Shown here piece after piece: positions 21,849 through 57,304 of a DNA stretch of 64,000 bases (its first letter is position 1; every line of letters begins with the position of its first letter). Origin of the DNA: Bryoerythrophyllum caledonicum. Its lineage: Eukaryota > Streptophyta > Bryopsida > Pottiales > Pottiaceae. Position numbers and translations under genes: made by a program. The stretch covers positions 1,056,501 through 1,120,500 of the forward strand of contig OZ020521.1 in assembly GCA_963971425.1 (NCBI GenBank), in the 5' to 3' direction. Under the pieces are notes generated by a model, which was not told the DNA's origin, did no database searches, and saw only the letters and a program-made list of their open reading frames with translations.

Positions 21849-21852
21849 GATT

Positions 21853-21925
21853 GCTAGTTTGTGAGCAATGAGCGATGAGCGATGAGCAGTGGGACGTGAG
21901 CGATGAGCGATGAGCGATGAACGAC
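21853..21925 (+). repeat. Left TIR of the outer element with GAGCGAT heptamers
   Basis: GCTAGTTTGTGAGC is followed by runs of the heptamer GAGCGAT in two blocks. The first 35 bases match the right end inverted. Confidence 0.85.
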
Positions 21926-22605
21926 GGCCTAGATTTTTAGAGAAGCAGGGTGGTTAACCGTGGAAAAATGCCAAAAGAGGAACCTATAACCGTGGAGATA
22001 TGGACAATTTATAGCCTATTAATCGTGGGAAGTAGTGAAATTATAGCCTGAATCTTTTTAAAAATTTCAATAAATCCACCTAATAATAATTCATTTTTTA
22101 CTTGTTTTCAATTTGTTTTCAAATTTGTTTTGATTTATATTTTTGAAATCCATATTATGGAATACACATCATTGGAACATTTTTAGAAAAGACTATTTAA
22201 TTCTTTAAAAACATTAAGGACTTTGAAAGAAGGTGTGCACTACCAACCGATGGGTATAATAGTAGGCATTTATGATAATCATATTATACGTAAAGAACTA
22301 ATCAATAGAATGATTGAAAACTCATCCTTGTAGGCATACCATAATATTAGAGATGAGATCATTTCTCCAAATTACAAGAAATTCTTATTGTTTATCTACA
22401 GTCCATAAATTCTACGTATGCCAGTCTGTCCCTTGGTTTATAGAGGTCTTCAGAATGAAATTCAGTTGTTAAGTAATGTTGTAAAATAGAACATTTACTT
22501 TCACATCAAAGAATGCGTGCAATTACAAAGATTCAAAGAGAAAACACTGAGAGCTCCATTAAAAACAAATCAACGGTTGAAATAGAAGAATTACGAATCC
22601 TCCGC
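21926..22605. other. Subterminal non-coding region, left end of outer element
   Basis: This holds the inner part of the inverted repeat (ACCTATAACCGTGGA at 21982-21996) and AT-rich sequence. No gene is seen. Confidence 0.6.
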
Positions 22606-25600
22606 TCAAAACTCATCAGAGTCACACTTGTACAAATAAGGGGCACCAATATCAGACCCACTATCAGCTGCCTCATCGTCTACAAAATGTCTTGCTGCGG
22701 ACATACGACGGGCTACACGAACAATTCTTGGAGGAGATGGTTGTGCTACCATTGCATCAGCAACTGTAGCATCCCATGGAGTCAAATCAAATGAGCGTAG
22801 AGGGCTCTTCAGTTCCTCGGAGTGTAGTGATAGCACTGCCGCGTGCATTGTTGATTGTGTAGCCATCAACGACGCCGACCGACTAGAAAGACCCAAAGGC
22901 ACATCATATTTAGAGTTAGGGAAAAAATATAGAAGTTGTAAACTACCATTCAACAACATGAACATAAGAGGAAGAGGACTTACTTACAAGTTCTCTTTGG
23001 AGCGGTCTTCACCTCTAGATCGTCGTCATCCACTTCGAGGGGGCGTTTGCGAGAGGCTTCTTGCTCTGAAGACGACGGAGTTGAGTCCACCTCCACGGTG
23101 CAAGGAATCAAGGGTCGGAGCACCTCCTCAACCAAAGTCGGATCAGACTCCAAAGCCAAGATGTGGCGCTTTAGGGCTTTGCAAGCCTTGATGGATGCCC
23201 CTGTATGAAAAATCAAGTCAATTGGTATTTCTGTTGAACACCATTATGAAATGCAATTCCATACGAAGTACTAAGAATACTTACCAGTCGACGCTGTCAA
23301 GTCCAGGACAATGTCATCCTCTCGAGTGCACATGTCAATCAACGCTTGCATGAGGTTGACGGACTTCTCCCGCGCTCCACGCCATGGCTCCATCGTGCCC
23401 TTCTTCAACGTCAAAGTGTCCTCCGTTATGAGGTTGGTCAAGTGACCGTCGGTGGAGAGCTGAATTCCCTCGCGGATGAGTTCCACCCTATCATAGAATG
23501 AGAATGGAGCCTCTCCGTCAAACTTCCTCACGAAGCACTTGGCCATGAAACACTTTTGAGTACGCCCAGGCTGGCCATCGCGAGAGAGTGGGAGGCCGTT
23601 GATAATGAACCATTTTGTTTCCTCCACAAGGCCTGCCCAATCTGCCCAACCCAGAAGTTCATTGGAGATGAACTTTGAGTCTGGATAGAATACAATCAAA
23701 GGCGCACCGTCGCGGAGAAGTTCTCCCACCATCTCAAAACAATTGTGGATGAAGATGGACTCCTTCCTCCCTCTATCATTTAGCCGGGTTGGATGCTCGT
23801 TCCAAACTGGAACTGTGGAATCTGCATAAATTCCAGGGACCGGCAACCCCTCAGGCACGTCGATGATAACCATGTCTACCAAGTCACACGGCTCACCACG
23901 CAAGCAACGGATCTTTGAGCCAGAGTGAGCTTTCACAAACTGGAGCAATTCTGTCCAAACTGCTGGGTGGTCACCCTCCTCAGTGATGTTGTTAAAGAGA
24001 GGCATGATAGAAAGGGCGCTCTGACACATCACCGTCACTCCAACCGAAGAATCCCCTTGCTCAATCACTGGGATTGTGTAAACCGTTTGAGAGGGCTTTG
24101 CGACATAAGGAGAGGGGCGGCTGCTAGCTGATGGTGAAATTCCCTGCGAAGGAGCAACTTCAGGAGTGCCAATAAATGCTGCCGCACCCCCCAGTTGAGT
24201 AAACAACTTTTGTGGGCCTTCCTTTGCCACCAATGCCGCAAATTCCTTGTACCTCTCCTTCGTCTCTTTCTTCTCCTTCTTCGCGGTCTCCCTCTGTAGC
24301 CTCCTCTCCTCTCGCTCCTGCTCTTTGATCTGCGCCTTCGCTGCCTTCTCTACAAGCGTTGCCTTTGCCTTCTCTGAGAGCGCAGGATCTTCTGCTATAG
24401 CTTCAGGAACAATAGACAGTAGAGCCACGTTGCCCTCACGAGAAGATAATGTGATCGATTGGCAAGCAGCACGGAACTCAACCTCGTCTCCCGGGGTGGA
24501 ATCGGACTCTCTCATCTCCAAGTACCATGGGCACTGTACAAGATGGTGATGCGAGAACCGGCGCTTCTGAGCATCTGTAAAGACACACTCCGATGTAGAG
24601 GTGTCCAACCACTTTGTGAAGCGGATGGGCAAATCTCCAGCAGCCAAGGCTCCATTTGCAACTAGTACCCTCCAGAAATAACGCATTACTACACGCTTCA
24701 CAATCTTGTCGCAATGGTCCTGCGCCATAAACTCCAAGCTCTTTGAGTAAGAGCCACCCTTTCCGATATGGCTGGAGAAAACCTTTGTCCATAATGACAT
24801 GCTCTTTGCCTCAATCCACTTTCCAATGCTTGGAATAGGATTTGGAAGCCCGTTTGTTTTGAGGATGATGTTGTCCTCAAGGATTATCTCACCAAAGAGC
24901 TTCTCGCTTTCCTCCTCTAGCTGCAACCAATATTTCAAGTAGTCAAAACATGAGTACACGACATAGTATTTTAAAGAGGACTAGACAAGATTAATTAAAG
25001 GAATATACCCCAGCAAAGAACGCAGCCTTGTCAATCCAACCACGCAGAACAAGGTCCGATGCCGGCGACGTAGGAAAGTTGTACTCCTGTCTACTACCCT
25101 TGCTCAAGTTCCACCACCTGCACCAGCGCCCCTTGAAAGTCGCGGCTACTTTGGCAGTGGCAATTAGCTGGAGCTTCTCCAGTGTCATTTCAGGCTTCCT
25201 CTAATACACATCAAAGTGACGGTTCACCTGAAGCAAAAAGGTTTGCAGTAAGACTTCACACTCATTAAATATAAACTCACCACAGAGAGTGCGAACATTG
25301 AAGGCCAAAATTGTACCTCTCTAAAGAAATCCTCTCCGTTGGCCGGATTGGCGATAGCAAGATAACGGTTTAGCTGCGTCTGACACGAGGTCTTCTTCCT
25401 TTGCACCGCGTCCGCGCAAAGGCTCACCAATTCAGTTGTACTACCATGGCGGTCTTCACCAACACCACTGACCAAGTTGTCCTTAAACTTCTGAATCTGC
25501 TCTTCTTGGACCGCAATAAGGTCACGCTGGAATGAAAATGAAAATCATGGCCAATTAGAAATCTTCGATTTAAAGAAAAGAAATACCAATAATTTTTATT

Positions 25601-26517
25601 ACAAAACAAGGAGTCCTTTACAACATACCTCATACATGAGCTTCACAAACGCATCAAGAGTCATGTGATACCACTTCCTTCCTCCCTTCTTTGACCACTC
25701 CAGGATGCTAGCTTCATAATCGTCGTCACTAATGAGGCCCTTCAACTGCTCGAAGTCCAAGAGGCCCAAATGCTGGACTCGCTTCAACTCGTGTGTTAGG
25801 TGCTGCGAAACGTGGTCCGTCTCCTTTTGCCTGCCAAGATGAAAGCATTCAATACATATCAAAGAATGTTAAATATGACAGGAGTTCAACAATTCACATT
25901 GCTGAAATACTTTATTGAGATGATTTCAAAATTTATACATACATGTTCCAGTCTGACATTGCGTTGAGCAAGATGTGCTGGTTCTCCAAGCACGGCTCAA
26001 TAACAACTGCCCTCATGGGAACATGGAAGTTTGGGTCCGTGGTGTGCAATTGAGAAATCACCTCACACCATGCCATGTGACGGTGATTGCCATCCCAAAC
26101 GAAGAAGAACTTGTTAGAGAATGCTGCAAACTCCGGCCGAGTACTCAAGAGCGCCTCAAACTTCTGGTCTTCCTGCCGCCATAGCGCGGACCATGACTCA
26201 CAATCTTCGGGAAGGACATTCTTCTCCACCAACGAGAAACTCTTCAACGATACGTAGAAACACGCGGACCCTGGTCTATACCCCGTGACAAACTCCCCCT
26301 TAAGCTTCTCCACATCGCTTCGTAGTGGTGACCGGACCATAGTCATGGGAATCATCCGACAAAGCGGAATGTGGAGCTCACCGGCCGCGCAACTAATTGA
26401 GCTCTGCAAAATGTCGTAAGAGATACCACGAATTGACCTCCGCAATGACTGCAAAGCTGATGCCAAGCCGGTCTCATCCACAAGATCACTGACGGCCTGG
26501 TCGTCGCATGCGGCCAT
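22606..26517 (-). CDS. ParB-like (DGNHR) / methyltransferase-like fusion protein, outer element
   Basis: Seven exons inferred from GT/AG sites: 26517-25943, 25830-25629, 25526-25281, 25227-25009, 24920-23285, 23200-22984, 22882-22606. Phases close exactly (3372 nt, 1123 aa). The start ATG directly follows a TTGTAG acceptor. The N-terminal domain has FFFVWDGNHRHMAW (DGNHR, residues 142-146), the ParB/sulfiredoxin-fold signature. The middle is helical and Lys/Glu-rich (24250-24350). The C-terminal domain reads DMVIIDVPEG (about residue 767, in the place of DPPY) and then VLDLTASTGASIKACK with LALESDP (about 950-980), the motif IV-then-I order of class-beta N6/N4 methyltransferases. DPPY is replaced by DVPE, so catalysis is doubtful. 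Exon 4 has an in-frame TAG (25201-25203) unless the acceptor ending at 25201 is used. The last exon is the least certain. ParB-methylase fusions are known from phages and mobile elements; a regulatory or segregation role is inference. Confidence 0.72.
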
Positions 26518-26903: not shown

Positions 26904-28252
26904 GACTTTCGGATCCAAAAGTCAGGTGTTGTGTGAATAATTTTACAAAAACGAAGATGACACCTACTCAACAAGTGGCAAAACTGCAACATTTGATGAA
27001 CATGACAGTCATTATATCATTGACCAACTAATTCTCAGAAGCAATTGCAATCTTCAATCACCCCACATTGCCCACAATGCTTATCTCATGTCATTCTTAT
27101 GGAAAACAACGATGCTGAAAGTTTTTGTTAAAATCAGGAAGACAATAATCGAGTTTCGGATCCGAAAGTCTCTTTTGCATCAAAGAAATTTCTAACCATT
27201 CATAAATACGGAACCAACTGTAATAGTCACAAACAAATTCTTTTCAAAATGAAGAACCGGTGAATGCAGTTTCGGATCCGAAAGTCATAATAAAATTAGA
27301 TATTTTTACAAACATCATTAATTATTGAACCAACACAAACAGTGACTCAAATTAAATTTTCGAAAATGAGGAACCTAGTGAACTACTTTCGGATCCGAAA
27401 GTCACATTTGCAGCAGAGAAGTTTACAACTAACCCAAATTAATGAACTAACAGAAACAGTGATTCAAAATACTTTTTTTCAAAATGAGGTACTTGTACAT
27501 CTAGTTTCGGATCCGAAAGTCACATTTTCATCGAAGAATTTTTTAACTCTCACTCAATAATGAACCATGTGAAACAATGACTCTTAATATTTCTTAAAAG
27601 TTTGGAACCTTGCAATCTACTTTCAGATTCAAACATCTTCAAAGCAGCATCAAACTTCACCGCACATTGAAGTGCATGAAACAGTTATCCCACTCGGTTT
27701 CAAGAAACAGATGTCACACACCTGTGCAGGATCCGAGGTTGGTGAAGTTGTGCACTGCACGCCTGCAAAGTCGGCACTCAGTGCTTCCTCCTCCATCACC
27801 GACGATGCAAAACTTGGGACCTTCAACATCAACACCCAGTTTCTATGGTTAAGGGTTTCATGTAATTTATAACAGGTTTGCTGCTAAGGCTCGGTCACTT
27901 ACATGACGAGGAGACAAGGTCGGTGAAGATGTGCACCTCTCGCCTCGCAAGTCGGCATGGCTCGCTCCATCCTCCATCCCTGGTGCTTCAAAATCACGCA
28001 CCTATAAAAACGACAGAAAATATCTCTCATCAGTAAGGTCGCCGAACAAGGTGATTGAGTTTCGGATCCGAAGGTATCAATTTCAGCAACAAATTCTACA
28101 ACAATATTAAGTGAATGAGCCATGTGACAGACCCTCGCAGAATCTGATTTCCGAAAGTAGGTAAAAGATCAGTAAGCTCTAAAATCGGAATCCCTAAACT
28201 GAATCTGTTTTACAAAATAGGAACCTCGAATTCTGACTTTCGGATCCGAAGG
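26904..28252. repeat. Array of GGATCC-centred 20-bp palindromes
   Basis: Consensus GACTTTCGGATCCGAAAGTC, a perfect palindrome. Copies lie near 26904, 27151, 27268, 27386, 27503, 28058 and 28236, with degenerate ones at 27617 and about 28145. The four copies 27151-27521 ride on a tandem unit of 117-118 bp. All lie upstream of the minus-strand ParB-like gene, probably in its leader; none is seen elsewhere in the window. Confidence 0.88.
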
Positions 28253-28420: not shown

Positions 28421-29272
28421 ATTTGGACGGGAGGGAGAATGTGGGATGAATGTTGGTGTACCGCATGTTTCTCAGTTCAGCAGTTGCTCGTCAGAAAAGT
28501 ATGGAATGACGGAAAGGTAATGACTATGGATCATATCCTAAAAACCCATCTAATTAAAAAATAAAGCAATTTTTCCTATAGAAATTTCGGCAAATTTTAC
28601 TAAATTTAGTAAATTTATCTTCGCCCCTACAATCCCCCCGGGGAGTCGTCGAGACAGTAATGGTTGATAACACAAAAGAATCTGAATTCAAAAGCTTCAG
28701 AATCTAGGGTATTTTGGCTAACATGCTTCTTTTGCAATCAAGTTAAATTTTCCTATTCAAATGAATTTGGAATACAATGCTATTTATGTAGAATACCGTG
28801 ACCACCAATGAGTCCTTCTGAAGTCTAATTTTAACTCCGCATCCTCTACCATCCCATCTCCATCCATACTAGTCACAAATTGTCTCTATTTCCTACATAT
28901 TCATAAAATCATGCCTATCTCTTTCAGAATTATGTTAAAAGTACAACAAGCATAGCACTTTAAAAACAAAAACATGTGACTGGAGCACTTACCTGTGATG
29001 CTATTCTTGATTCTCTTCCTTCATCATGTGCTCCATTGTGAGCTAATTTTCTCCACCTTAATTGCGTTTAGTAGTCAAGTGGATTAAATTCACTCACACG
29101 TAATTTAGATAAGTTGCAATCTATCTTAACATTCACCCATCATTTATACTTGAGGTAGAATATATTAATTCCCAGAATAAAACTTGATTAAGTTAAAGTA
29201 AATTAGGTGAAGTAACTTTTAACTAACCCAAGTAACTTTTAATCAACCCAAGTAATTAAAGTTACTTGTAGT

Positions 29273-29298
29273 AACGCCATATTCATTAAAATGAGACA
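29273..29298 (+). repeat. Left TIR of the inner element
   Basis: Starts AACGCCATATTC and ends ATGAGACA. The inverse is at 49101-49126 with one mismatch. Just inside, AAAATGAGAC and GTCTCATTTT form a 10-bp hairpin. Confidence 0.85.
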
Positions 29299-30147
29299 TT
29301 TCAGAGTCTCATTTTAACATGGTACCTAATTTTAGTCATTTCATTATTTCATTAATTTGAGACTATGTATTAAATTGAGACTCAAACTCTTTTCAAAATC
29401 TTGAAGAATCCGGACATATCATAGATTGTTGAATAATTTTCGTATCTAATTGAGTAGGCCATTTAATATGATTTCGTGTGTAAAGATAGTAGAGTATCAA
29501 AAAATATATTTAGATATGGAGCATATTATTTAAGGAACAATAATACACCATGAAAAAAATTGCATAGCAAGAATAAACTTGACTTCATGAAAACACATGC
29601 GACAATGAATTTTAGGAACCCTAGTTGGACTCAAAATTGGACTGAAATACACATATACACTCATTCACCAACCACCTAGAATGCATATCTTCACATATTG
29701 AAGAGAAATATTTTCAAATTTCAAAAGCTTATACAACTTCTAGCCAAAATGGTCATTGAGAAGATAACATATATTGTAGCAATTCATTAAGAACTTACTA
29801 TTAAAAGGAAATATCAAAGCATCAAGGATAAATGCACAATCAATCGCAGTGACAATCTGGACCAAGGTTCATTTGTCATCAATGTAACAAAATAATAGGA
29901 ACGTTCTATATTATGGAAAGCAACACAATACATCACTTGATGAAACAACAACTTGTTATTAAATTTTGTCTGCAAATATGCTACGCATGCAACAGTCTAC
30001 AATTGCATCACATATTAGATACATTGAGTTTGTTACAAGCCTTAAAAGGATATTCCATCCAAGGGCAAAACAAATTCAAATAACCACACGTACTCCCACC
30101 AATTTCATATTCAGGAATAACTTCAATCCACAAAAACCCGTTGAAAT
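29299..30147. other. Subterminal non-coding region, left end of inner element
   Basis: AT-rich sequence with no gene. It lies downstream of the minus-strand DUF7869-like gene and would hold its 3' UTR. Confidence 0.6.
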
Positions 30148-32961
30148 CTAATAATCAGCTAAAGATGCCTTGATGATGTCCACCTGTGATTTTGGAATTT
30201 TGGGTCTAGACGAGCTCAAGCTCCCACGCAACCTAGGTTTCCACGCAGTTATAATACAATCTGTATACACCCACGTTGGTTCAGATTCAGTTTCTTCGAC
30301 CCAATTATTCCCATGACTAGAATCCCACCCTTTGTATGTGTCCGGACTCACATGACGCATGGATGCAGGTTTGTAGTATTGCACTTTAATCTCGTGAGAA
30401 TGTTCACGATCTGGATGCGGATTTGTCAATGCTAAGGCAATCCAAAATGGGCGCAAATCTCCATCAGCAGGACGTATCGCAAGTAAATAGCCCTCCTGCA
30501 CATCTCTACCGACCCGAAACGATGGAGGGGGACAATGACGTCGTTGTCCAATGAATGGGGGGTCTTCTGCGTAATCCTCTCTCAATGTACCGTCAATCTC
30601 AAATTCATCCACCATTGATGGTGCGTATCTAGATAGTGGCCAAAATCCCGTTCGTAGGGAAGGCGATTCTTCCAATGGCACGTCGAGAGCAGCCTTAACA
30701 CCCCTCCAATAGTACATAATATGTTCATTCTTCCTCCTGTATTCACCTGAGAGATCCTCGTTTGCCATAGACTCCCAGAGACTTAGAAACCCAGAGATGC
30801 CCTTTATAACCTCATCATAATTCTCATGACGTTGTGGAATGAGGGGAAGTGGCTCTCCACGAGGCAATATTGGCCTACCATCCGCCGCCACCTTCCATAG
30901 TTGAATTCCTCCATTCTCTATTGGCAACCAATCCCTATCTGTACAAAGCAGTTTGTACTGCATCTTGGGCAAACCATCGGAGTCCTTGTAAAACTTGAAT
31001 TGTTGGCCCTTTGTATGACCTATAAGGGCCTCCTTGCCAACACACAAATAGCCTTCTAAAAAGCTCTTGAAGTCAGGCACCTCTTCAATGAGGTGTGGAA
31101 TAACTGGCTTCTCCTCAGCATCCATGAATGATTTCATCAAGAGTGGGATCGTTGGATAGCTATTTGACTTAAGTTTGGTACTCCATCTTCCAAACATTGC
31201 ATCAATATCTTCGTGGGTATGACCAACAAGCAAGAAGTTGACGTACACTTCACGGAAAATACCCATATGAACAAGGAGGGAGAAGAAAGCAAATAAATAT
31301 CTATTCTTATTGTCCCCTGTGGCATTATCCAACTGCATCTGGAGAATTGGCGGCAATTGTTTGGCAGGAATAGGTTCAACTGGTTGAACTGCAAGGGATC
31401 CAAAGCACATATTAGCATCTGCAAGCACTGCCTCAAAGAGAGGAGAAGCTCTCCCTCCTACAAATAATTGACGAGAGGAATACACGGGTGGTCTCTCTAA
31501 GTCCCGAAGTAACTTAGCAATGGATCCAACTGTGTGATTTGAGTCGGTGGGAAAGATGTCAAGACTATAATGTGCATAGCGGACATCTCCATGTCCATGC
31601 GCAATCATCCCTGTTACAGCCACAGGAAGTTTCATAAAAGACTCTGTTGCTTTATTCTTATGAGAAAAATGGGGAGATGCGGTTTTGCTGTGGTCCATTT
31701 TATCATGAATGATGCACACAACCTCATCTGGATTTTCCTCTGAGTTCTTTCGGTTGCCATAATATAGGATACGATGAGTTTGTTGAGAGGCTTGATGTAA
31801 CTGTAATTTGACTTCCCACATTTAATATGCGGAGGATCCTCGCGTAGTAGCCTTCTTCAATTGCTTAAGTTGGTCGCATCTCCCACAACGAGCAAAGTTG
31901 TCACCAGGCTTCTTAGTGGAGAATTGTTCAAATTCAGAGCTTCGAATTCGACTAAGACCTGATAAGGATACTGGTTTGAGGCCAAACCTAGCATTCACCG
32001 CATTCACTTTGGGTAGCACTGCACTCCACTGAAAGGATGACGGAAGATGTTTTGAGATGACCTTCTCCCCACTGCCAAGTGTAGTAGTCTTATTAGGACT
32101 ATGATCGGCAGCATCGTCAAGTATGTTGTGCAAAGTAGCAATTGCCTGTAGAGTATGAGTGCGGGGCTTCTTTGTGCCACTATTGCCATGAGGCCCTGCT
32201 CGAACTTCATCCTTTGCATCACTTTTGTACCGGTAGAATGTAGCTCGGCTAACCCCCATGATAGTACACCATGCATCTTGGCAAACATCAATTCCATCAA
32301 GCGTCACCACACGGTTTCCATTGGAATCTATGTGCATCTGCCTATGCACATCAAGCAAAACATGTTTCCGAAAATAAACACCTCCAATGTCATGGTAAAT
32401 TTGAGAGCGAAGTACCGAAATTGTACACCGTGGAAATCGTTGGGTACAGTTTCTCAGACAACAGACGGTGCTTGCCACAGAGTTAATCGACTGTGTAGTG
32501 AGTAGGACTTTCTTATGCGATGGGGAATGATGCTCTGCCCTTTGACGATTGCTTTCATACTGTCGAACACCAACTCTTGGTCCACGACGAAATACTTTAA
32601 GAGCAGCATTGTAAATGCTCGTTTGTTCTTGGTCATACAAACTCACATTACAAAGGAAGACGTGTCGAATTGGCCATGCTCGGAGAGCGAACATCCAATT
32701 CAAAGGAATGTCATCCTCATTTAAGGACTCGGCAATCATAACCGCAACATGATCACTTCCAAGTGGTTGACCTCCAGTTTCAGGAACAAAACCAGAATCA
32801 ACACTCTGGCAGAGGCCAATTCCAACATCAGCGCCTGATAAGTTTCGAAGGACAACGCGCTTTGAAAACCAAGACGCTCGAGGAATACCCTCACATGCAA
32901 CAACACCTGGAGGCAAGGTTGGTCGCACTTGAAAACCGCTATCAAATGACGCTTCTTCCAT
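30148..32961 (-). pseudogene. DUF7869-like putative transposase of the inner element, one nonsense codon
   Basis: One uninterrupted frame of 937 codons except for TAA at 31822-31824. The ATG at 32961 directly follows a TTTTGTAG acceptor. Visible parts: a helix-turn-helix-like segment (GVSRATFYRYKSD, about residue 238), a CxxC (CGRCDQLKQL, about 358), and after the stop IIHDKMDHSK, HGHGDVRYAHY, QLDNATGDNKNRY and FLLVGHTHEDIDAMFGRWS. The acidic/His motifs D-x-x-DHSK, LDN and GHTHEDID are those I associate with DUF7869, a family often near plant and algal mobile DNA and plausibly RNase H-like; catalysis is not established. The nonsense codon sits between the CxxC and the core, so this copy should give only the N-terminal half. 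It lies 0.9 kb from the left TIR. Confidence 0.78.
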
Positions 32962-33333
32962 CTACAAAAGATCACATTCGAAGGGATCAAGGAATGGTTA
33001 ACCAGTTGTATGAAAAGATGTCAGAAGACAGTTTGAAGAAAAAGGGAATACACAGAACAAAATACCGATTACCAATGACTCAAAAATAACCCTAGTTCAA
33101 TTGTACCTTCAAATGAGTTCCAACGGCATTTATGTCCTACTCAACTCTAGGACAACAACAGACATATAATTGTTCTCCAAAAAAACAATCAAAATATATA
33201 TAACACATAAAATATTGTGGTCATCACAACTTCCGCAAAAATGTTGCTCCCTACAAACATCATAATAGACACAGAAAAGCCTAGAATATCTCATCAATGA
33301 TATTATTCTCTTCTTAATCACGACGCTTTAAAC
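32962..33333. other. Upstream region of the DUF7869-like gene
   Basis: AT-rich, no gene seen. It probably belongs to a leader intron ending in TTTTGTAG at the gene's ATG. Confidence 0.5.
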
Positions 33334-41393: not shown

Positions 41394-41439
41394 GTGTAAA
41401 AGTATTGTACTAATCAGTTCAAAATTGTGTCATCTGCAG

Positions 41440-46225: not shown

Positions 46226-46456
46226 CCTTTTCGGAATTGTTAATCGATTTTCTTGATGTTATCTAGCCCTGTCTTTTTCTAATGACTGCTTTTAGCGCAC
46301 AGTAGGTCTTATCTCTCTCTGTGGTGGCTTGCAGGTGTAGAATCCTTACAGTTTTTGATGTACACTAGAAGGAATGTACAAATTTTTTGTAAAACGTTTT
46401 TTTCATCAATCTATAGAATTGTTTAACAATTCAATTTTACTCAATTGTTTCCTCAG

Positions 46457-47449
46457 ATCACTTTGGATGACACTGTCCACCGTCCCATTGCACTGAAGCC
46501 TCGGATTGGAAATGTTTTCCAGCAGTCGCATTGTGGAGTGGAAATCATGCAATCTGTGACAGTTCCGTCTCATGTTGCTCAATCTGCATTTCATCAGGTA
46601 AATTCATATGTTTCCTTTTATTGACTCTTTTTTGTGTTGGTCATGTACCAGGATCATCCTTCTAGGAGTGTGTCTATTGCCCAGAACATTCGGCCCCGAA
46701 AGTGGCTGAATATTGTTCTGGATTTGAATGGTATCTTGTGCGAGGCAGCATTTGCACCTGCCTCGTCAAGGTCCTCCGGGAGTCGGGTGGAGTTTTCGCC
46801 CACCATCCCTGCATACATAGGTCCTAAAGCTGTATATACTCGCCCTGGCGTCCGTGAGTTTCTGGCGACCATCAGAGATCTCTCAAACTCTGTTGTCATC
46901 TGGAGCTCAATGATGAAGTCCACCGTTGAGGAGATTGCAAATTACCTCTTTCGTGATCTGTCTCCTCCAGATCTCATTCTTGGTCAAGAGAGTTGTGGGA
47001 AGATTGAGACGTCGCAGAATACTTTTTTGATGTCTCAATATAATTCGAAGAAGATGATCTTTTTAAAAACGTTGTCTTCTTCGTTGTATAATCGTCGAGA
47101 TGACTTCGGTATCATGAACTCCGACAACACTCTACTTTTGGACGACAGCCCGGAAAAGAGCGTCTGTAATCCTTCTGGCAATGCCATTTTCCTTCATTCA
47201 TGGCGGCACGGAGCTAAGAATGATAAGTTTTTGATTCAAGAACTCCTGCCATGGCTCCGACGTTTGACATCTGAATGCGGTGTCGGGCAGTTGAAGGATT
47301 ACGTGAATAGCAAACGTATAGGCAGTCGTCCATTGAGTCCTAATAGTCCTTCGATGAAGTATATCACGAATGGAATGGCCCTCTCCTCTAAGAACCTTGG
47401 TGCGGAGTTTGAGATTCCAGATGATGCGGCATCATCAGCTAGGTTGTAG
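46457..47449 (+). CDS. FCP1/NIF-like HAD phosphatase domain, probable C-terminal exons of the inner ParB-like gene
   Basis: Two exons, 46457-46597 (CTCAG acceptor, GTAAAT donor) and 46652-47449 (stop TAG), joined in phase 0. The second encodes a NLI-interacting-factor-like HAD domain: LNIVLDLNGILCE (motif I, with the second Asp of DxDx changed to Asn), VYTRPGVREFLATI, VVIWSSMMKSTVEE (motif II Ser), YNSKKMIFLK (motif III Lys) and LLLDDSPEKSV (motif IV). Such domains dephosphorylate Ser/Thr, classically on the RNA polymerase II tail. The D-to-N change occurs in plant relatives and may lower activity. An upstream donor AAG/GTTGGC at 46216 would make one protein of about 1768 residues, ParB-like + methyltransferase-like + phosphatase. 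That donor is weak, so a separate gene starting at an ATG in the first exon is the alternative. Confidence 0.7.
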
Positions 47450-47913
47450 AAGTGTATTTTTATGTACGTCAAGAGACACTCTATAATGACGAACAATATG
47501 CCTTTGTGAAATTTGTATATATATTTTTCATTAGTGAATATATAGATGTCTTGTTTGTTTTTACTGTTCCCGTCTTGTCTTCTATTGTCATTTCACATGC
47601 TCTTCGTTTCAGTCGTGGTGATGTTTATTCAGTGTTGGATCTAGCATACTTATGAATGTGGTTCAGGGCTTCTTAGTTATTTTTGTGTCGAGCCTATTAT
47701 TGACTGTGGTTTCGGGCTTCCTAGATATGGATGAGTCGAGGCTAGTATGTTTCGGTGGATCGAGTAGAGTTGTTATCGTTGGATCATGTATATTATCCTT
47801 GGGTCGAGCATTATGTTGGATTGCTTTCTTCCTGAATGCAAATTTGTCATTCTTATTGCTTCTTTTGTCATGTCATTCTTATTGCTTCTTTTGTCATGTC
47901 ATTCTTATTGCAG
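47450..47913. other. Spacer or intron after the HAD exon
   Basis: No gene. It contains a worn half of the 21-nt palindrome (about 47792) and 2.5 copies of a 26-bp pyrimidine-rich tandem repeat (47846-47912) ending in a TTATTGCAG acceptor. Confidence 0.5.
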
Positions 47914-48708
47914 GTTGTGCAGGCTAGCATTACTCCTACCCCATGCAAGAGTGGTTGTAGTGTACTACCCTCCAACGTTGGCTCGTTCTCTGAGTACTCG
48001 GGGTCTCTTCATGGAGGTATTGCCATGTCCTATCAATCGAAGCCGTATCTTATGTGCACTGCAACTGATGCTGCCTCTGCTATCATGGACTTCTCTAAGC
48101 AAATGGTCGATGATGGTGTCGTGGATAGCCCTCCAGAGCGTAGGGCTGGCATAACTCCTGTGGCATCCCCTTTTCCTCTCAAGCGGATGTGCTCTTCTAT
48201 AGAGCCTAAAGTCGATTGTGCTTCTCAACGGCAGCTTTATGTGGATGAAGCTGTTGAAGGAAATCGGGTGAACGAAATTGTGCATAATACTTCTGATCCT
48301 ATTCTATCTTCTTGTACGCCTCTTCAGCCTTCTTGCCCCCCTGTTAAGCAACGGCGGCTTGAGTGTACTCGATCTCAAGGTGCTTTTGGAGTTAGAAAAC
48401 CTCCTATTCCTCCAAGCGAGTGGGAAACTCAATCATTGGGTACTAAGCCAAGATGTCCGAGTTCAACATCTGCACAATATCGTCGGAAGTCTATGTCGTC
48501 CCATGTAGGTGATGGTATTGGGCCCGATAGTTATCAGTGTCCGCCATCAGCTCTTTCGACGAAGGTGAAGTACATGGAAGTTGATGATTGGTATAAACCT
48601 TACTCTCGGAGGAAAGAAATTATGATTGGATATGCAAAGGTGAAAGCACAAGAGGCGTTGCTTTTGAAGGCACGTGGAGTTGGATCAAATTTGTCCAAGT
48701 CTTGGTAA
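47914..48708 (+). CDS. Terminal exon of unknown function near the right end of the inner element
   Basis: The frame is open from the acceptor TTATTGCAG at 47913 to TAA at 48706-48708 (264 codons). The product is Ser/Pro-rich and mostly disordered, ending in a basic helix (KEIMIGYAKVKAQEALLLKARG). Phase-0 joining to the HAD exon is not obvious, because no good phase-0 donor precedes its stop. It may instead be a last exon reached by alternative splicing from an earlier exon, or part of a worn gene. I recognise no domain. Confidence 0.45.
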   Translation, partial: VVQASITPTPCKSGCSVLPSNVGSFSEYSGSLHGGIAMSYQSKPYLMCTATDAASAIMDFSKQMVDDGVVDSPPERRAGITPVASPFPLKRMCSSIEPKVDCASQRQLYVDEAVEGNRVNEIVHNTSDPILSSCTPLQPSCPPVKQRRLECTRSQGAFGVRKPPIPPSEWETQSLGTKPRCPSSTSAQYRRKSMSSHVGDGIGPDSYQCPPSALSTKVKYMEVDDWYKPYSRRKEIMIGYAKVKAQEALLLKARGVGSNLSKSW

Positions 48709-49100
48709 TAGTCATAGTGTAATTTTGGATGTCTTATAGAAGTCGCTTGGGTAATTCTCCCCTTACTTATAGACACATTAGTAATATATTTTAATTCTAT
48801 TATTAGGTAGTGGTTTATCCTTGTTCTTTAGGTGAACAGTGACTTGAATTATATTTTGAGTGGTTCGGTTTTGTACTAGATCCAGTCCCTGAGAAATAAC
48901 ATATTTTTCCAGACAATGTACTTATCTTTTACCAGTATATGTGTGTAATGCTGTTGTCGAGTGTTGGGTTGATCATGTTGTTGATATGATGGATTTGTGA
49001 TGTTTTCACTTATGTTGTATGTTGTATGCTTGAGTTTACAGTAACTTTTCGTTTGTTTTTATTCCGAAATATTAGGGTATTTGTCTCAATTTTTACATTT
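48709..49100. other. Subterminal non-coding region, right end of inner element
   Basis: T-rich 3' UTR-like sequence, no gene, ending in the right TIR at 49101. Confidence 0.55.
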
Positions 49101-49126
49101 TGTCTCATTTTAATGAATATGGTGTT
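49101..49126 (-). repeat. Right TIR of the inner element
   Basis: Inverse of 29273-29298 with one mismatch, followed by TAGT as on the left side. Confidence 0.85.
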
Positions 49127-50680
49127 TAGTAACTTAAATTTAACCTATGGTAAATAAATTCATCCAAGTAAATACTTTCAACTCAAGTAAATTTTTTTTT
49201 ACCTAGGTAAACTAGACTTTACCTCTAAGTTAAACTAGGTTTCACTTTTTACTTTTTACTTTACTTTTTATCACGCCGTCTAGTGAAAATCCAAGTTACT
49301 AGACCCTTTCAAATGCAATCAACATTCACAACAACATACACAATAACATACTTTGCAATACAACACATGAATAAAAATTGCACTAGAACCGTGCCATAGG
49401 CCGGGGCTTCATATGTGCAATTCTATTCAACATCAATCAACCAACAACATTCACATATTAAACCCACACCAAACAATACTCTTGCAACAATTGAAAACAA
49501 ATCAATATATTCAAGTTTAAAGAGGTCGGGAGGGCAGCAGGACCCCCCTTGTCACTAGATTAGCCGTATCTCCTTCGACTATCCTCCAAACAACTTGAAA
49601 CTTGTTCACTGTAAAGCTCACTTGGTGGTGCTTCAGCTCCTGCAAAAAACTTGTTAAAAGCTTTTGCCACGCAAAAGATACAGAGCCTCAAAGTTGCTGC
49701 TCCGAAAACCCTTGACTGCTGACCCCTTCCAAGTAGATCAGCCGCCACTCCTTCGTTTCTAGTTCAATCGATTCCAAACTTAACCAACACAAGGTGAGCT
49801 AAACTCCACTTCAGAACACGAAACAAACACCAAAAAATCTTTCACCAATAAAAAGTTATGAACCTCCAAAGTAGCCAGTCTTCAACTCTCGCCTCCACCA
49901 CCCCTTGTGTACTTTAGTAGCCGTAACTCCTTCGTCGTTGCTTCAAATTGCATGTGCGTGCAGTCCTTGGAAAGCTCACTTGAAGTTCTACAAGCCCTCT
50001 AGATCTCAAATCCAAATTCGTTGCTGCCTGCCTGCAATCGCCCGCCAAAGTGAGCGCCCCGATTCTGCCTTGGCAGTAGACCTCCTTCCACTAACTACCT
50101 TGTAACTTCTTCATCCTTGCTCCAAATGGAGCGTCCTTAGTGTCTCTAGAAAGCTAACAATGAGATCTAGGTCCTCCTAAAAGTTCACGTCCTAACTCTA
50201 ACTGTCCTCTACGCCACACACACTTAACCGCAGCCTAACCAACTAGGGAGAAGAAGGGGAAAAACTTTGACATAGCTTCGCCCAAGAGAAGAGAGAGAGA
50301 GGGAGAATGGCCGCCCAAGCTCCCTTATACAAGTGGGAGGAAGCTCAAGGGTGGCGGCCACATCTCCACCATCCACCTCAACAATCTCTAATCAAGATCT
50401 AAGGGTCCACAATAAACCTAACCCCTAAACCCGAGTTTAGGGCTGGATACGTCCAAAACTCCTAAAATAAGATATTTTTTACCCAAATAACTTCACCAAT
50501 GTGTTTAAAACACATTTAAACCTCAACTTTGACTATTCATACATCAAAATCCAAGTTCTAGATCATTGGAAATCAATAATTCAATCACCACTCATTTACC
50601 CACAAAAATTTCAACTCTAACTATTCTAATCAAAAGGTTAGCCACGGTTCTCTCCATGGGAGCCTTCTAGATCCTTCTAG
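49127..50680. other. Outer-element non-coding DNA with a 179-bp tandem repeat
   Basis: Following AAGTAA-rich sequence, four diverged units of 178-180 bp start near 49563, 49741, 49920 and about 50099. Each reads roughly GCCGTAACTCCTTCG, then GGAAAGCTCACTTG. No gene is supported; short ORFs inside are chance. Confidence 0.65.
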
Positions 50681-51525
50681 ATCTTCTTCTAGATCTTCTT
50701 CTAGATCTTCTTCTAGATCTTCTTCTAGATCTTCTTCTAGATCTTCTTCTAGATCTTCTTCTAGATCTTCTTCTAGATCTTCTTCTTCTTCTTCTTCTTC
50801 TTCTTCTTCTTCTTCTTCTTCTTCTTCTTCTTGAAGATCTTCTTCTTGAAGATCTTCTTCTTCTTCTTCTTCTTCTTCTTCTTCTTGAAGATCTTCTTCT
50901 AGATCTTCTTCTAGATCTTCTTCTAGATCTTCTTCTAGATCTTCTTCTAGATCTTCTTCTAGATCTTCTTCTAGATCTTCTTCTAGATCTTCTTCTAGAT
51001 CTTCTTCTAGATCTTCTTCTAGATCTTCTTCTAGATCTTCTTCTAGATCTTCTTGAAGATCTTCTTCTTCTTCTTCTTCTTCTTCTTCTTCTTCTTGAAG
51101 ATCTTCTTCTTGAAGATCTTCTTCTTCTTCTTCTTCTTCTTCTTCTTCTTGAAGATCTTCTTCTTGAAGATCTTCTTCTTGAAGATCTTCTTCTTCTTCT
51201 TCTTCTTCTTCTTCTTCTTCTTCTTCTTCTTCTTCTTCTTCTTCTTCTTCTTCTTCTTCTTCTTCTTCTTCTTCTTCTTCTTCTTCTTCTTCTTCTTCTT
51301 CTTCTTCTTCTTCTTCTTCTTCTTCTTCTTCTTCTTCTTCTTCTTCTTCTTCTTCTTCTTCTTCTTCTTCTTCTTCTTCTTCTTCTTCTTCTTCTTCTTC
51401 TTCTTCTTCTTCTTCTTCTTCTTCTTCTTCTTCTTCTTCTTCTTCTTCTTCTTCTTCTTCTTCTTCTTCTTCTTCTTCTTCTTCTTCTTCTTCTTCTTCT
51501 TCTTCTTCTTCTTCTTCTTCTTTGT
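50664..51525. repeat. Compound TTC microsatellite and 12-bp AGATCT minisatellite
   Basis: Blocks of TTCTTCTAGATC (12 bp, about 50670-50785 and 50888-51050) alternate with (TTC)n and GAAGATCTTC palindromes. The block ends in an uninterrupted TTC run of about 330 bp (51190-51520). Confidence 0.97.
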
Positions 51526-52203: not shown

Positions 52204-52291
52204 AATCCAACCATCTCCCCATAACTATCCCCTCTCACTTCCTTAGTCCACTACCCGCCCAGCAATAAACTATATTTAAATTACCAGCCTA

Positions 52292-52336
52292 CTATTACCT
52301 GTACTCATATTTTCAAAATGTGAGTACAGGTAATAG
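52292..52336. repeat. Perfect 16-bp inverted repeat (hairpin)
   Basis: CTATTACCTGTACTCA (52292-52307) is followed after 13 bases by its exact inverse TGAGTACAGGTAATAG (52321-52336). It lies 0.5 kb upstream of the MULE-like gene. Confidence 0.9.
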
Positions 52337-52809
52337 GCGGCGCCTCCTCCAAGAAAAGCATATCTTTAATGTCAACTTTCTAAGATTGAGATGTAGCCTG
52401 ACAACCTACACTCTGACACTTTTGACGACATCTTTCAAATTATGTAGACTCTATAACATAGCTCTTCCAAACATAACATTTAAAAATCCTGAGAGTTACT
52501 TTCCAACTCACATCCACCTCAACAAACTCGGATGTGTACTAATAACTCCATCCTTGCGACGGCCACCTGCTTTAGTACATCTAATTTGCACTACAATCCG
52601 CCGCCTAAACCTTGAACCACGTTCTCCTAAAAGATCCATCATTGTTTTTTTTTATTTTCTTTTGTCACATTCTTCACACTGCTCAATGTCACTCTCTAAA
52701 CTGAATTAGAACTCCACTACCAACATATACACCACCATCGCTCGTAGCATTCAGTAACTTGTTAGCAATTTTTACGAATCTTCTTTGCCCCATTGCATTG
52801 TCCTTAGAG
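52337..52809. other. Upstream region of the MULE-like gene
   Basis: No gene is supported on the plus strand. A leader intron probably ends at the TTAG just before the ATG (52806-52807). Confidence 0.45.
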
Positions 52810-55800
52810 ATGGCTACACTTAGCACTGAAGGAGCAAAGCATCCAATTCGACATCCACTAGGACCTAACGGTCTTGCCATAGTTCCTTCCGTATACCTAG
52901 CAGTCCGTTTTGGTTTCCAGGAAGAGTCTATCTATGTTGAGAAAGAGGTTCTCAATGTGGACGGAAATGTTCAATACACTGTCACTCAGCTCAGTTCCCT
53001 AGTTAATGGTCAGAAGACATGGTCCTTGGAGGAGGGTACTTACAAAGTCTTTGGTTTGTCTCAAATGCAGATGCAGGCATCCACGCACCTGTTGACGCCC
53101 GGGAAGTTCACAACGTCTAGCATCCACGCCCCACTTTGCACTCCAGCAACTAGCGTAGCCGACATCCCCCCGCCCTTGAAGCAACATCAGGCGCACTCTC
53201 CAATCTTCATTGACGACAGCGATGATGACTTCCGCGTGGAGGACATCACTGCCTCCACTCCCACCTCTTTTCGCACCCCGCCGCCATCCACGTTCGACGA
53301 GCACCGGCAATCCCCAACACCGTCTTCCGCTGCACGACCTCCCCTACATCCTCAAACATTGGGACGTACAAGTGTTGTTGCGTGCTTGAAGAGCTTGGAG
53401 TCTAGACCAAGTACGAAGAATGTGCTGAAGAATATGAACTATGCTTCAGTGCCACATCGGACAGTTGACTTCCTACCCTCCATGTACGATGGTGATGTCA
53501 TCTTTGAGTTGCCACCCGTTGCTGCTGGTGCCAATTCGTCCAAGGCCAAGAACTTGCAGGGTATGGACAAGAAGTACGATGGCCATTGTTGGTGCCTCAC
53601 AAAGACCTCCAACATCTCAAATGACATGGGCCTTACCTTCCGGAGATCCTCATGTGCTGGCCATCTCAAGTGCGGAAATCTGGATTGCGATTACCTAAAA
53701 CGACCGAATCGTGAAGACCCCTACAATGAAAAGGAGTGGGAAGGGACAACTCCCATTCCCTTCGTGCCGGGGAGGAAGACCCTCCGAAACTGTCCACCGT
53801 ATGTTGCAAGGTATGCAAGACTCCACCTAAGGCCATTGCTACATGTGACGCTATTATTTACTATGTCATTGGACCACCGGGTATGACCCGAGCTTGTGTG
53901 CACTTGGGCGTCCATAATCACCCCGTTGCATTAGGCGTCTGCCGCGAGTCTGAGAATACTATCATTTCCTTGATCGGCGAGCAAGTGGAGCGCACTCCGT
54001 CCGCAACAAATTCCTCCATTGCCATGGCTGCAAGTAAGGAGTTCCTTGCGAAGCATCTCCTCCGTCCACAACAGTGCGATACGACCATGACTGTGGAGGA
54101 CATGAAGACCGTTATGGAGAAGTACGCCAACCTCGCCTCTCCAAACATCAAGAATGCTATATCAAACTTCAAGCACGTCGGGCGCACTAATCCCATGGAC
54201 GGCATCCGCCAGATGAGAGGATGTACGACCTGGCCCTTTGTCCAACGAAATATGTTTCCGGGACAAGGCGCTGACAACGACAAAGTCTTTGTCTTTAAGA
54301 TGAGTGAGGTAGGACCTGGCTCCGGTGTTGACCTTGTCACTAGAATGCAGCCAGGAGGAGACTTGCAAGATTCTTGGCTCATGTTTGACCACGTCAAGCG
54401 CGTCAATAATTGGACCACTATGGCGTGCCATGTCTATGATTCACACTACTGTAGGGTGATGACTATTGCAGTATGTGATATGCAATCTGAGGATTGTGAG
54501 GCCCAATGTGTCATGTGGAAGTGCCTCAACGAAGTCATGGCTAGGCATGGGCTCATGATTGTCAACTTCAAGGGATTCATGGCGGATAGCGCTGGTGCCA
54601 ATTGGAATGCTGTTCGCAAGATCTATGGAACCGGAGATCCACACAAGGAGATGCCTGATCGTGAGCGCACATGCCTCCTTCATTGGACCACCTCCATGAA
54701 CCGCCATACAGACAATCATATCAAGAGTGAGTTCCAAGAACAACATCGTCTCCTATGCAAGCAATATAAAAATTCGAAGACCTCCGCCGAGGCTGAGGTT
54801 CGATACCTTGCAATTCGGGCATGGTGGCAATCGTGTGGAGCCGTAGACGATACAGCACTCAAGCAGCTTGACCAGTGGCTTGCTTTCTGGCATTATCGCT
54901 ACCGGCAATGGGGAGCCTCCATGCAGCTGGTAATTCATTCTTTCGCCTAGTACATTGTCCCGTGGACTCACTTGTTTGTGCTAGCAATCAATGTTGGCTA
55001 AATTCCTGGATGTCTTTTCCAGGACCTCACGGATGAAGAGCGTGCTGAAATGCCCTCCTGCAACTTGTCGGAGACCGTCCATAACCGTTGGCTTCAACAG
55101 TCTGGCAATAGGGGGAACGATTTGTACGACGCTACAGTGGACGACTTCGTACGTGCATTCATGCAGTGCACAAACTACTACAAATTTCTAAAGGGTGGGC
55201 GGCCCGGAACTGGGCCTTCAAAAGAAGAGTTGAGGCTACGCCAAGCCCAGTAATCGGGCAGACTAGATAAAGTTGTTGACGCAATGTAGACGATGGCAGA
55301 GGGGAAGGAATGGTGCACCCGTACCCCACATTTTGAGGGTGAGGAGGTCTTCGGGTCTACCGCACGCAAGCTAGACCTCCCTCTTGGATCTGAGTTTGAT
55401 AGTCACCGCTCAAACAAGATGAACTTCTCCCGTCCCAAGGTCCAGACGAGAACAAGGAAGGGCCGCCGTGAGAGTGCTCCACCAGCAATTGATTTATCTC
55501 CCCCTTCTTCATCTACTTCTTCTAACGACGTTCGCATTTTGTCTCCACCAGCATCAGCATCCAATGTTGTAAGTGCACAGGTGAAGCATGTGACTAGTGT
55601 CCAAGAATCTGACTGCGATGTGAGGCAATGGCACATTGCCCGACTCCTAAAGACTTCCAAGAAGAAATGCTTTGCCAAACAAGCACGAACTGGAAGAACT
55701 TGTTCAGAGATGATTATACGTCTAGGTAAGAGTACTCCTGCCCCTACCTATACTGGAGTGTTGCACATTCGCCGTCTGTTGAAAGACAAGATGATGGAGT

Positions 55801-56480
55801 TCTTCCATTGTATGGACGATATCGAACGTTGTGTGAAGGGAACCAACCAAAAGTGGGTGGTCGGCGCCCGACCCCAGGTGCCCAACGTTTGGCCCGTACT
55901 CAAGGGCACGAAGCTCATAAAGGGGGAGATTCTTAGACTTGAGCAGGCTGGATTCCAACTTCAAGAGCGCCGAGAAATTTCACCTCGGCGTCTCTTTGGA
56001 CACTCCAAGAGTCACATTGCCGAAGTTACTGCAGTTCCAACTCCAGAAGCGCCCGATGCATATCCAACACTCCGTGATGGGCGCCGCATCCAACGTCTAC
56101 CACAAGGCAAGGTGTCCGTGAAGCAAAGGAACCGTTGGGAGTCAGCCGCCATCATTGATGCCCGCATCAGCCAGGTTACTCCCATTCCATACCCTGTCAA
56201 TGGAGGTATAGTTTTGTTGCACTGCAAAAAGGCGCAGAGAACGACGGAGTATCGCTTGACTATTGGGACCACCCCGGATTGCTCTTGTGAGGACTTCAAG
56301 GATATGTTCGTCTGGACGAAGAAGCGAGGCGCTTGGTACTATTGCAAGCATTTATACTACATCTTTCGTGTGTTGTGCCAGTTTCATTTGGAAGATGACC
56401 ACTTTGTTCATGCACCGACGTTCAGCTTCAACGAAGTGAAGAAAGTAATGGACAGCGGTGTGGGTCGTTTTCTCTATTGA
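52810..56480 (+). pseudogene. MULE-like transposase with SWIM zinc finger, outer element
   Basis: Exon 1 is 52810-54929 (ATG two bases after a TTAG acceptor; GTAATT donor) and exon 2 is 55023-56480. Order: N-terminal region; Cys/His-rich finger (CWCLTKTS, GHLKCGNLDCDYLKR, VCCKVC, HLGVHNH); DDE-like core SWLMFDHVKRVNNWTTMACH, TIAVCDMQSED, GFMADSAGANWNAV; RTCLLHWTTSM and YLAIRAWWQSCG; then after a Ser-rich linker a SWIM finger CSCEDFKD ... YYCKHLYYIF. Breaks: a one-base frameshift at about 53760-53800, in-frame TAA at 55251-55253 and TAG at 55287-55289. The frame downstream of each is well conserved, so they look recent. By family it cuts and pastes elements with long TIRs. It is the only transposase-like gene of the outer element outside the nested one. 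Confidence 0.82.
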
Positions 56481-57263
56481 CTACATGTAGAAGTTAGCCA
56501 AGGTCATAATCACTAATAACTATGGATGTGTCTCCAAGTCCTTAATTCTATGATGTTTATAATATAGTTGTTGGTACCAACAACTAAAGTAGCTACCACT
56601 CATAAGAAGTACATGCCCCCTAGTGTAACATCAAAATGTAAAAGACTTGGCCACTTCAAACTATGTTGTCTACCTATATTCTTTGAAGTTTTTTTTTTCA
56701 TTTTCTTTTTCTTGATTTTAATTGTTGGCGCCAACAATTAGACTAGCTACCTCTCATGGGGCTTGCATCCTCCCTTCACTACTTCCCAACAACTTAAAAT
56801 GTTAAACTCGTAATATCCAAGCCTTGATAAATCTAAACCCCTAGCACCCCTTATTCTCTATACTATTCAAAATCTTGCTTCTTTTTAAAGCCTGATGCTC
56901 CCTCGCACCACCATCATCATCTTCTCTCTCAACTTGGTCTACTAGTTCTTTTAGAAATTCTGGCGTTATGTACAAATCTGCTACAGTCAATGTCATCATC
57001 ACTATTGCTAGCCATTGAAATACTCCACTGTTCCTATAAGTAATGTCCTTTCCAAATACTGAACTTCTTTAAATCTCAGAAAATAGGGGGGCTTGATGAT
57101 TTTACGGTATGATTTGAGAGGCCCTAAAATCCCAACAATTGAGTTCAATCCACGGTTATAGGTCAAAAAATTTACTTAAAATAGAAATATTCTCCAAAAT
57201 TATTCGAATAAATATAATTTTTTAGTAAATTTGTGCTCGTTGCTCATGAAATGACCGCTCATC
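56481..57263. other. Subterminal non-coding region, right end of outer element
   Basis: No clear gene. A 50-codon minus-strand ORF (about 56840-56995) is too short to call. 57149-57163 (TCCACGGTTATAGGT) is the inverse of 21982-21996. Confidence 0.55.
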
Positions 57264-57298
57264 GCTCATAGCTCATCGCTCACAGCTCACAAACTAGC
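57264..57298 (-). repeat. Right TIR of the outer element
   Basis: On the minus strand it begins GCTAGTTTGTGAGC followed by TGAGCGATGAGC, matching the left TIR at about 32 of 35 bases. Confidence 0.85.
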
Positions 57299-57304
57299 GT
57301 CGTT

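Follow-up and report, generated by a model that had tools for sequence, protein, structure and literature searches.

A 64,000-nucleotide stretch of the Bryoerythrophyllum caledonicum genome (contig OZ020521.1, positions 1,056,501–1,120,500; hereafter the window) contains two transposons, one nested inside the other, each with a ParB-like gene and a set of mirror-image DNA sites (dyads) of its own. Together, the site sets and the ParB-like genes look like a means for each transposon family to recognise itself. Cognate pairing of each protein with its sites is probable, judging from the sequences. The best explanation that we can offer for the whole, a family-specific ParB-like protein acting on its own dyads for anti-silencing or self-regulation, we hold to be about evenly poised between right and wrong.

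In this explanation, the ParB-like protein of each element family would bind the family-specific dyad, probably as a dimer; that dyad is repeated in the promoter regions of the element itself, in tandem arrays and, in the inner family, in introns. The dyad array would mark the DNA as 'self', and the bound protein would most likely shield expression of the element's transposase and regulator genes from silencing by the host, in the way that VANC acts for VANDAL elements, or else set their level. Since VANC of Arabidopsis is the closest functional precedent, anti-silencing is favoured, with self-regulation as the main rival; given the pairing, we lean slightly towards anti-silencing as the main role.

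Nested elements and their dyad sites

The outer element is bounded by a pair of 35-nt inverted repeats and by a 14-bp direct repeat (at 21835 and 57305), which is separated from the inverted repeats by 4 nt at the left end and by 6 nt at the right end. The second element is nested inside it. Its inverted repeat falls within 29256–29298 and 49101–49143, and we read its ends as 29273–29298 and 49101–49126, with a possible TAGT duplication that, at 4 bp, is short enough to have arisen by chance. Both inverted-repeat pairs agree with an earlier note, made from the sequence of this window, which had described a nested pair of elements with different ends. The ends are as follows.

21835–21848, no strand: outer 14-bp direct repeat GATTTAGGACACAG, left copy, target-site-duplication-like (self-comparison)
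21853–21887, plus strand: outer left terminal inverted repeat, 35 nt, 91% identical to the right end (self-comparison of the window)
29273–29298, plus strand: inner left terminal inverted repeat, with TAGT (29269–29272) just before it
49101–49126, minus strand: inner right terminal inverted repeat, followed by TAGT (49127–49130)
57264–57298, minus strand: outer right terminal inverted repeat (self-comparison)
57305–57318, no strand: outer 14-bp direct repeat, right copy (self-comparison)

Two families of dyads occur in the window. The inner-type sites (TATCCTCGnnnCGAGGATA, at most two mismatches) number 18 and all lie within 33334–45968; the outer-type sites (TTTCGGnnCCGAAA, at most one mismatch) number seven and lie within 26907–28251. 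In 20 Markov-simulated windows with the same dinucleotide make-up, the inner type was found in no run and the outer type gave one match in three of the 20. The inner palindrome family of the earlier note is real, with a core of 19 nt rather than the 21 nt proposed, and the claim that the palindromes never cross the element boundary holds for all 18 inner and seven outer sites, apart from a single stray outer-type match with one mismatch at 46688, inside the inner element, which is at chance level. The ParB-like exons and the sites around them are listed below, together with the sites beside the inner DUF7869 gene (a putative transposase gene). The nine sites next to that gene lie mostly within a tandem duplication (33255–33847 and 33858–34450, 72% identical), and the end of the inner exon was placed from the GTAAGT at 42817.

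25933–26517, minus strand: outer DGNHR ParB-like exon, 194 aa (motif and alignment; 35 homologues; 150 places scored in the genome)
26907–26920, no strand: outer dyad TTTCGGATCCAAAA, one mismatch (this and the following outer dyads from the dyad scan)
27154–27167, no strand: outer dyad TTTCGGATCCGAAA
27270–27283, no strand: outer dyad
27387–27400, no strand: outer dyad
27505–27518, no strand: outer dyad
28060–28073, no strand: outer dyad, one mismatch
28238–28251, no strand: outer dyad, one mismatch
33334–34502, no strand: nine inner dyads (at most two mismatches) upstream of the DUF7869 gene, at 33334, 33477, 33687, 33795, 33938, 34079, 34291, 34398 and 34484
40903–41392, no strand: four inner dyads upstream of the NGQHS exon, at 40903, 41033, 41308 and 41374
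41440–42816, plus strand: inner NGQHS exon, with a predicted ParB-fold domain (residues ~308–441 of a 505-aa frame) and an N-terminal domain
42838–42856, no strand: inner dyad within the intron after the NGQHS exon, 21 nt from the intron start
44316–44470, no strand: inner dyads 44316 and 44452, at and past the end of the second long open reading frame (ORF)

The terminal repeats of both elements contain no dyad site. This bears on the possibility that the ParB-like proteins are accessory transposition factors that join the element ends in the manner of TnpA, the DNA-binding protein that the maize transposon En/Spm encodes, which has repeated sites of 12 bp and affects methylation. The genes do stand beside a putative transposase in both elements and the sites are clustered; however, the sites are internal (33334–45968 within 29273–49126 and 26907–28251 within 21853–57298), whereas those of TnpA are subterminal, and TnpA is unrelated to the present proteins. 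We regard such a role as highly improbable.

The ParB-like fold

The inner protein contains a domain predicted, from a structure model, to adopt the fold of the ParB N-terminal domain; the match rests on VIA-align of the top 1000 structures from Foldseek, in which KorB ranks with the best-matching folds. The N-terminal domain of the same exon shows a weak likeness to PH domains. No ParB family was matched by the inner family (15 alignment members) in Pfam at E values of up to 1, and searches of PDB sequences with alignments A1, A2 and A3 (outer and inner) returned nothing relevant. For the outer DGNHR exon, the likeness to ParB lies in the motif and alignment A1 only. The ParB-like gene that the earlier note assigned to each element is thus supported by a predicted fold in the inner element and by motif order in the outer one. 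ParB carries a GERR-type motif, and NGQHS and DGNHR stand in its place in the two proteins. Neither a helix-turn-helix nor another separate DNA-binding domain, nor CTP-binding residues, were identified in them.

Association of dyads and genes across the genome

In the 437-Mb genome, the inner pattern TATCCTCGANNCGAGGATA occurs 1344 and 1424 times on the two strands, compared with 0 for the reversed control, and the outer pattern TTTCGGNNCCGAAA occurs 592 times, compared with 15. Both exons belong to families: 150 places were scored among 1804 candidates for the outer exon and 92 among 2388 for the inner exon, many copies having the ParB-like exon still open. Ordinary host genes, named in the earlier note as the alternative, fit such families poorly.

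We cut out 30 loci of each family (seven of the inner loci, which lacked an exact NGQHS match, were kept in their given orientation). Every one of the 30 inner loci has five or more sites of the inner type and none of the outer type; 29 of the 30 outer loci have outer-type sites and none has an inner-type site. Most loci are close copies of the window, and the informative cases are therefore the seven inner loci at 74–75% identity and the eight outer loci at 71–75%. Four further divergent inner copies were inspected, and two of these (L071 and L072) have sites. On contig C1, where the first-listed sites, all on this contig, were compared with the listed gene places, 40 of the 50 listed outer sites lie no more than 5 kb upstream of a listed outer copy and none lies within 5 kb downstream; 12 of the 15 listed outer copies have an upstream site, the upstream windows making up 0.15% of the stretch.

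A private palindrome family beside the ParB-like gene, as the earlier note had proposed for each element, is thus found at loci throughout the genome. Its wider reading, in which the same kit occurs in both elements, stands genome-wide for the different ends, the putative transposases, the ParB-like gene and the separate dyad families; the methyltransferase part of the kit is unproven.

Persistence and change of the dyads

Upstream DNA turns over between subfamilies while the dyads persist, as comparison of divergent copies indicates. Between the inner copies L037 and L061, which are 72% identical over the gene, the upstream matches consist of dyads (for example, 23 of 23 nt identical), short words and low-complexity stretches rich in GT. 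When outer subfamilies (70–73% identical) are compared, the upstream matches, of about 50–77 nt, are centred on dyads and their repeat units, which have a spacing of about 117 bp in one subfamily and 64 bp in another. In a fourth outer subfamily (L074), eight 126-bp units carry AAACCACCTTCGGATCCGAAGGTGGTTT or a near variant; here, one position of the dyad is altered on both arms, a symmetric change that goes along with change in the protein.

Two further copies retain the arrangement. Upstream of the inner copy L061, locus L068 contains a DUF7869 gene (90% identical over the 556 residues compared) that adjoins a dyad cluster. Upstream of the outer copy L030, locus L069 contains an eleven-site array with 64-bp spacing (eight sites exact, three with one mismatch), and the frames beyond the array are 57% and 42% identical to two ORFs of the outer putative transposase gene. 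From these layouts, the gene kit and the dyads travel together in one further examined copy per family.

The number and placement of the sites also bear on simple autoregulation, in which the ParB-like protein would repress its own promoter and that of the transposase as a form of copy-number control, with no role in silencing. Both ParB-like genes do have sites upstream, as does the DUF7869 gene of the inner element; KorB, a plasmid repressor type, is among the best fold matches; and DndB, a regulator with a DGQHR motif, is reported to bind palindromic TACGN10CGTA boxes in its own promoter (PMC4507180). Against this, 18 sites in one element, long arrays (11 in L069, eight in L074) and sites in an intron and in a reading frame exceed what a repressor needs, and we consider autoregulation alone to be possible but unlikely.

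The dyads could instead work by forming hairpins in RNA or DNA, whether as sources of small RNAs, as cruciforms or as signals for splicing, and their co-location with the ParB-like gene would then be hitch-hiking inside one element. Such a function would accord with the intron placement of a site and with a third outer subfamily (L033–L036), in which some sites extend to near-perfect palindromes of 50–62 nt. After near-identical flanks had been collapsed (79 to 36 for inner sites, 28 to eight for outer sites), flank pairing around inner sites exceeded expectation at positions 2, 4 and 6 of 12 (18, 16 and 15 of 36, compared with 11.7, 10.7 and 9.3) but was near expectation at the other positions; the eight outer sites with distinct flanks are too few for a judgement. 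The short arms and freely varying 3-nt centre better suit a protein dyad, and hairpin function appears improbable.

The layout of gene and sites extends beyond this genome. Scanning of genome contigs with the window protein found no relative and scanning with alignment A4 found one, L067 (CADCWO010000074.1), a 4.2-kb contig from another sample, filed in the bin of an uncultured cyanobacterium; viral contigs that were scanned contained no relative. L067 encodes an inner gene 75% identical to that of the window, preceded by four exact inner sites and with another in the intron behind the exon, repeating the window layout and placing the inner kind of kit in a second sample. Because the dyads and the spliced-gene layout are both present, the contig is probably plant contamination of the cyanobacterial bin. 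With at most 73.7% DNA and 76% protein identity to the loci of the 437-Mb genome that were compared, it cannot be a copy of any of them.

Three inner homologues of greater distance (P0042, P0045 and P0047) have, after the exon, a peptide whose codons could spell a complete dyad built like TATCnnCG...CGnnGATA but in different letters; from the peptides, the predicted dyads would be TATCGTCG, TATCACCG and TATCCCCG. A dyad-capable peptide is found at the post-exon place in six of 14 inner homologues, compared with a background of six in 1361 windows; the target peptides were first picked by eye, and the background leaves out seven-residue windows with more than 20,000 codings (1361 of 1500 sampled windows were scored). 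Among the changes in inner sites, 30 of 33 at CpG positions and 36 of 56 at other positions are C to T or G to A, which is suggestive of methylation decay; because only sites with one or two mismatches were counted, we keep this pattern apart from the main argument.

Points against the interpretation

Several findings weigh against paired proteins and sites. The 60 loci are not independent: identity to the window reaches 90% or more in 23 of the 30 inner loci and 95% or more in 22 of the 30 outer ones. The outer locus L032 has no site of either type, and three of the 15 outer copies listed on C1 have no upstream site. Of the remaining two divergent inner copies, L070 has no site and L073 has one match with two mismatches; both have stops in the exon and, as degenerate copies, are uninformative about co-divergence. 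The inner association on C1 is weaker than the outer, with 36 of 68 listed sites and four of 12 clusters within 13 kb of a listed copy, figures that come from a shallow listing in which most gene candidates were never scored. The refuting condition named in the earlier note, palindromes spread over the genome independently of the genes, is contradicted for the outer family. Seven of the ten unassigned outer-type sites form one array with the centre TA instead of AT (TTTCGGTACCGAAA; C1:3370972–3371573, between L075 and L076), mostly 84 bp apart; within about 1.8 kb on either side, no ParB-like relative was found, only a few chance-level matches of 12–47 residues. The peptide signal is absent from eight of the 14 inner homologues, the frames of several of which end before the site, and the tails of two homologues hold another dyad-capable peptide (NSGRPSY) in their coding part.

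Two further points concern the proteins, and each supports an alternative. Comparison of the outer and inner protein profiles was not significant, as would be expected if the two were unrelated, the GNH/GQH motif and the palindromes were coincidental and two separate protein–site systems were present. Against this, the motif order is alike by eye, the layout is alike and both site types are two-arm CpG dyads; we judge coincidence to be rather unlikely. Several bacterial domains of the ParB/Srx fold are also reported to have unspecific DNase or NTPase activity, among them that of the ParB–methylase protein Bce_0392 (PMC5512222, which deals with proteins of phages and bacteria). A ParB-like domain of this sort, with no sequence preference, would leave the dyads to serve another purpose, and the proteins do have no identified separate DNA-binding domain; yet the dyads stay with the gene amid upstream turnover and the dyad of one subfamily has changed with the protein, which makes an unspecific enzyme a poor prospect.

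Comparison with known systems

The earlier note knew of no description of a eukaryotic transposon system with a DNA-binding ParB-like factor and cognate sites. The general idea of a plant transposon that encodes a DNA-binding factor for motifs of its own is already known from Arabidopsis VANC/VANDAL (PMC5735166). VANC proteins act against silencing, with loss of methylation on cognate elements. The VANC21 targets sit in tandemly repeated DNA, both within introns of the genes VANC21 and VANB21 and ahead of VANA21; VANC proteins carry DUF1985/DUF287, and the VANC21 motif is YAGTATTAY (PMC5735166). VANC factors and their motifs diverge together (PMC5735166; PMC10398659). The inner family resembles VANC in having a transposon-encoded factor and short motifs, particular to the family, that occur in tandem arrays, within introns and ahead of the transposase gene; the outer family departs from this layout in having arrays only upstream of the ParB-like gene. 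Unlike VANC, the inner protein has a predicted ParB fold and the dyads are long compared with YAGTATTAY, and unlike the VANDAL elements, the inner element has a DUF7869 gene rather than a Mutator-type transposase. Pfam scans of the inner family and of outer and inner ORFs found no DUF1985 or DUF287. The best reading is that the present system is convergent with VANC. As a type of system it has its parallel in VANC; what appears to be new is that the protein has this fold, that the sites are dyads and that the combination stands next to two different putative transposases.

The resemblance to bacterial ParB, Noc and KorB (with parS, NBS and OB sites) lies in the predicted fold of the inner protein, that of their N-terminal nucleotide-binding domain, and in palindromes repeated near the gene, the latter being evidence of location. 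The present proteins differ from these in their eukaryotic transposon host and in the NGQHS/DGNHR motifs that replace the GERR-type motif. A eukaryotic counterpart of ParB–parS can be imagined, in which, in at least two kinds of transposon, a ParB-fold protein would load on private dyads, spread along the element as a nucleotide-dependent clamp and, by coating it, exclude the silencing machinery, while the specificities of protein and dyad would evolve jointly and leave each family protecting itself alone; we consider this tentative extension to be unlikely. DndB, like the inner protein, has a GQH motif and binds palindromes in its own promoter but is bacterial and has two boxes only (PMC4507180). 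Bce_0392, in line with the ParB–methylase fusion invoked in the earlier note, joins a ParB-like domain and an adenine methylase in one protein and is reported as a nonspecific nicking enzyme (PMC5512222), whereas the methylase part of the present proteins is unproven. In the titles and beginnings of abstracts listed by searches of the open-licence PubMed Central literature, we found no ParB-like protein encoded by a transposon of plants or other eukaryotes, a weak negative, and no paper on DUF7869 was found in that literature.

Transposons must tell their own DNA from that of the host, and VANC is one known plant solution. Here, a fold that marks bacterial chromosomes and plasmids, unrelated to VANC, stands beside two different putative transposases, and its DNA sites change together with it. 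Should the pairing prove true, the families would offer a natural series of protein–site pairs from which to learn how ParB-fold specificity evolves and possible sequence-specific tools to alter plant chromatin; they would also allow a direct test of the repeated evolution of anti-silencing.

Other genes and features

The remaining genes of the two elements are listed below.

23271–24980, minus strand: outer downstream ORF with a weak DNA-methylase-like C-terminal motif (Pfam, alignment)
30148–31821, minus strand: inner DUF7869 gene, C-terminal part, putative transposase, DDE-like by eye only (Pfam DUF7869, 4.1e-46)
31822–32961, minus strand: inner DUF7869 gene, N-terminal part, cut off by one in-frame stop in the window copy (ORF list; comparison with L068)
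42906–44345, plus strand: inner second long ORF, methyltransferase-like by eye only (no match in Pfam scan)
44480–46225, plus strand: low-complexity ORF with inner dyads 45752 and 45950 in frame
46625–47449, plus strand: NLI-interacting-factor-like phosphatase ORF inside the inner element (Pfam NIF, 6.9e-15)
52705–56480, plus strand: outer putative transposase gene, ORFs 52705–53886, 53730–54950 and 55290–56480 (ORF list)

The inner DUF7869-like gene had been recognised correctly in the earlier note, the relative in L068 also matching the family (1.8e-44). An in-frame stop at 31822–31824 splits the window gene; the L068 gene is a single open frame of 949 aa. The dyads in the low-complexity ORF translate to the peptides YPRIED and YPRSED. 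The NLI-interacting-factor-like phosphatase domain has a possible link to RNA polymerase II regulation.

The MULE (Mutator-like element) label given earlier to the outer transposase is not established. The three unspliced ORF pieces gave no Pfam match, and a C2H-like motif and the SWIM-like zinc motif in the last ORF were seen by eye only. A target duplication of about 8–11 bp is expected in the MULE superfamily; the outer direct repeat is 14 bp and, with its offsets of 4 and 6 nt from the inverted repeats, makes the outer ends unlike those of a textbook Mutator-like element. The outer element may be distantly Mutator-like. The methyltransferase part attributed to both ParB-like genes is likewise unproven: the outer ORF matches Pfam N6_N4_Mtase at 0.023, below the cut-off of that family, three of eight alignment members match it (best 0.01), the position aligned by eye with DPPY reads D-[VIM]-PE and the structure model is uninformative (pLDDT 40); the corresponding inner ORF has no Pfam match.

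Adjoining the outer transposon, 908-bp direct repeats (1–908 and 20081–20988, 100% identical, 20 kb apart) look like the long terminal repeats of a very young element of ~21 kb; the two long ORFs between them gave no match in a Pfam scan. Within the elements, inverted repeats of 96 nt (90% identical) lie at 38469–38564 and 38744–38839 and of 45 nt at 52292–52336, and the right part of the outer element contains a long, strongly skewed repetitive array (50664–51522). Close to the outer right end, there are palindromes TTGTTGG-TA-CCAACAA (56563–56588) and TTGTTGG-CG-CCAACAA (56717–56742).

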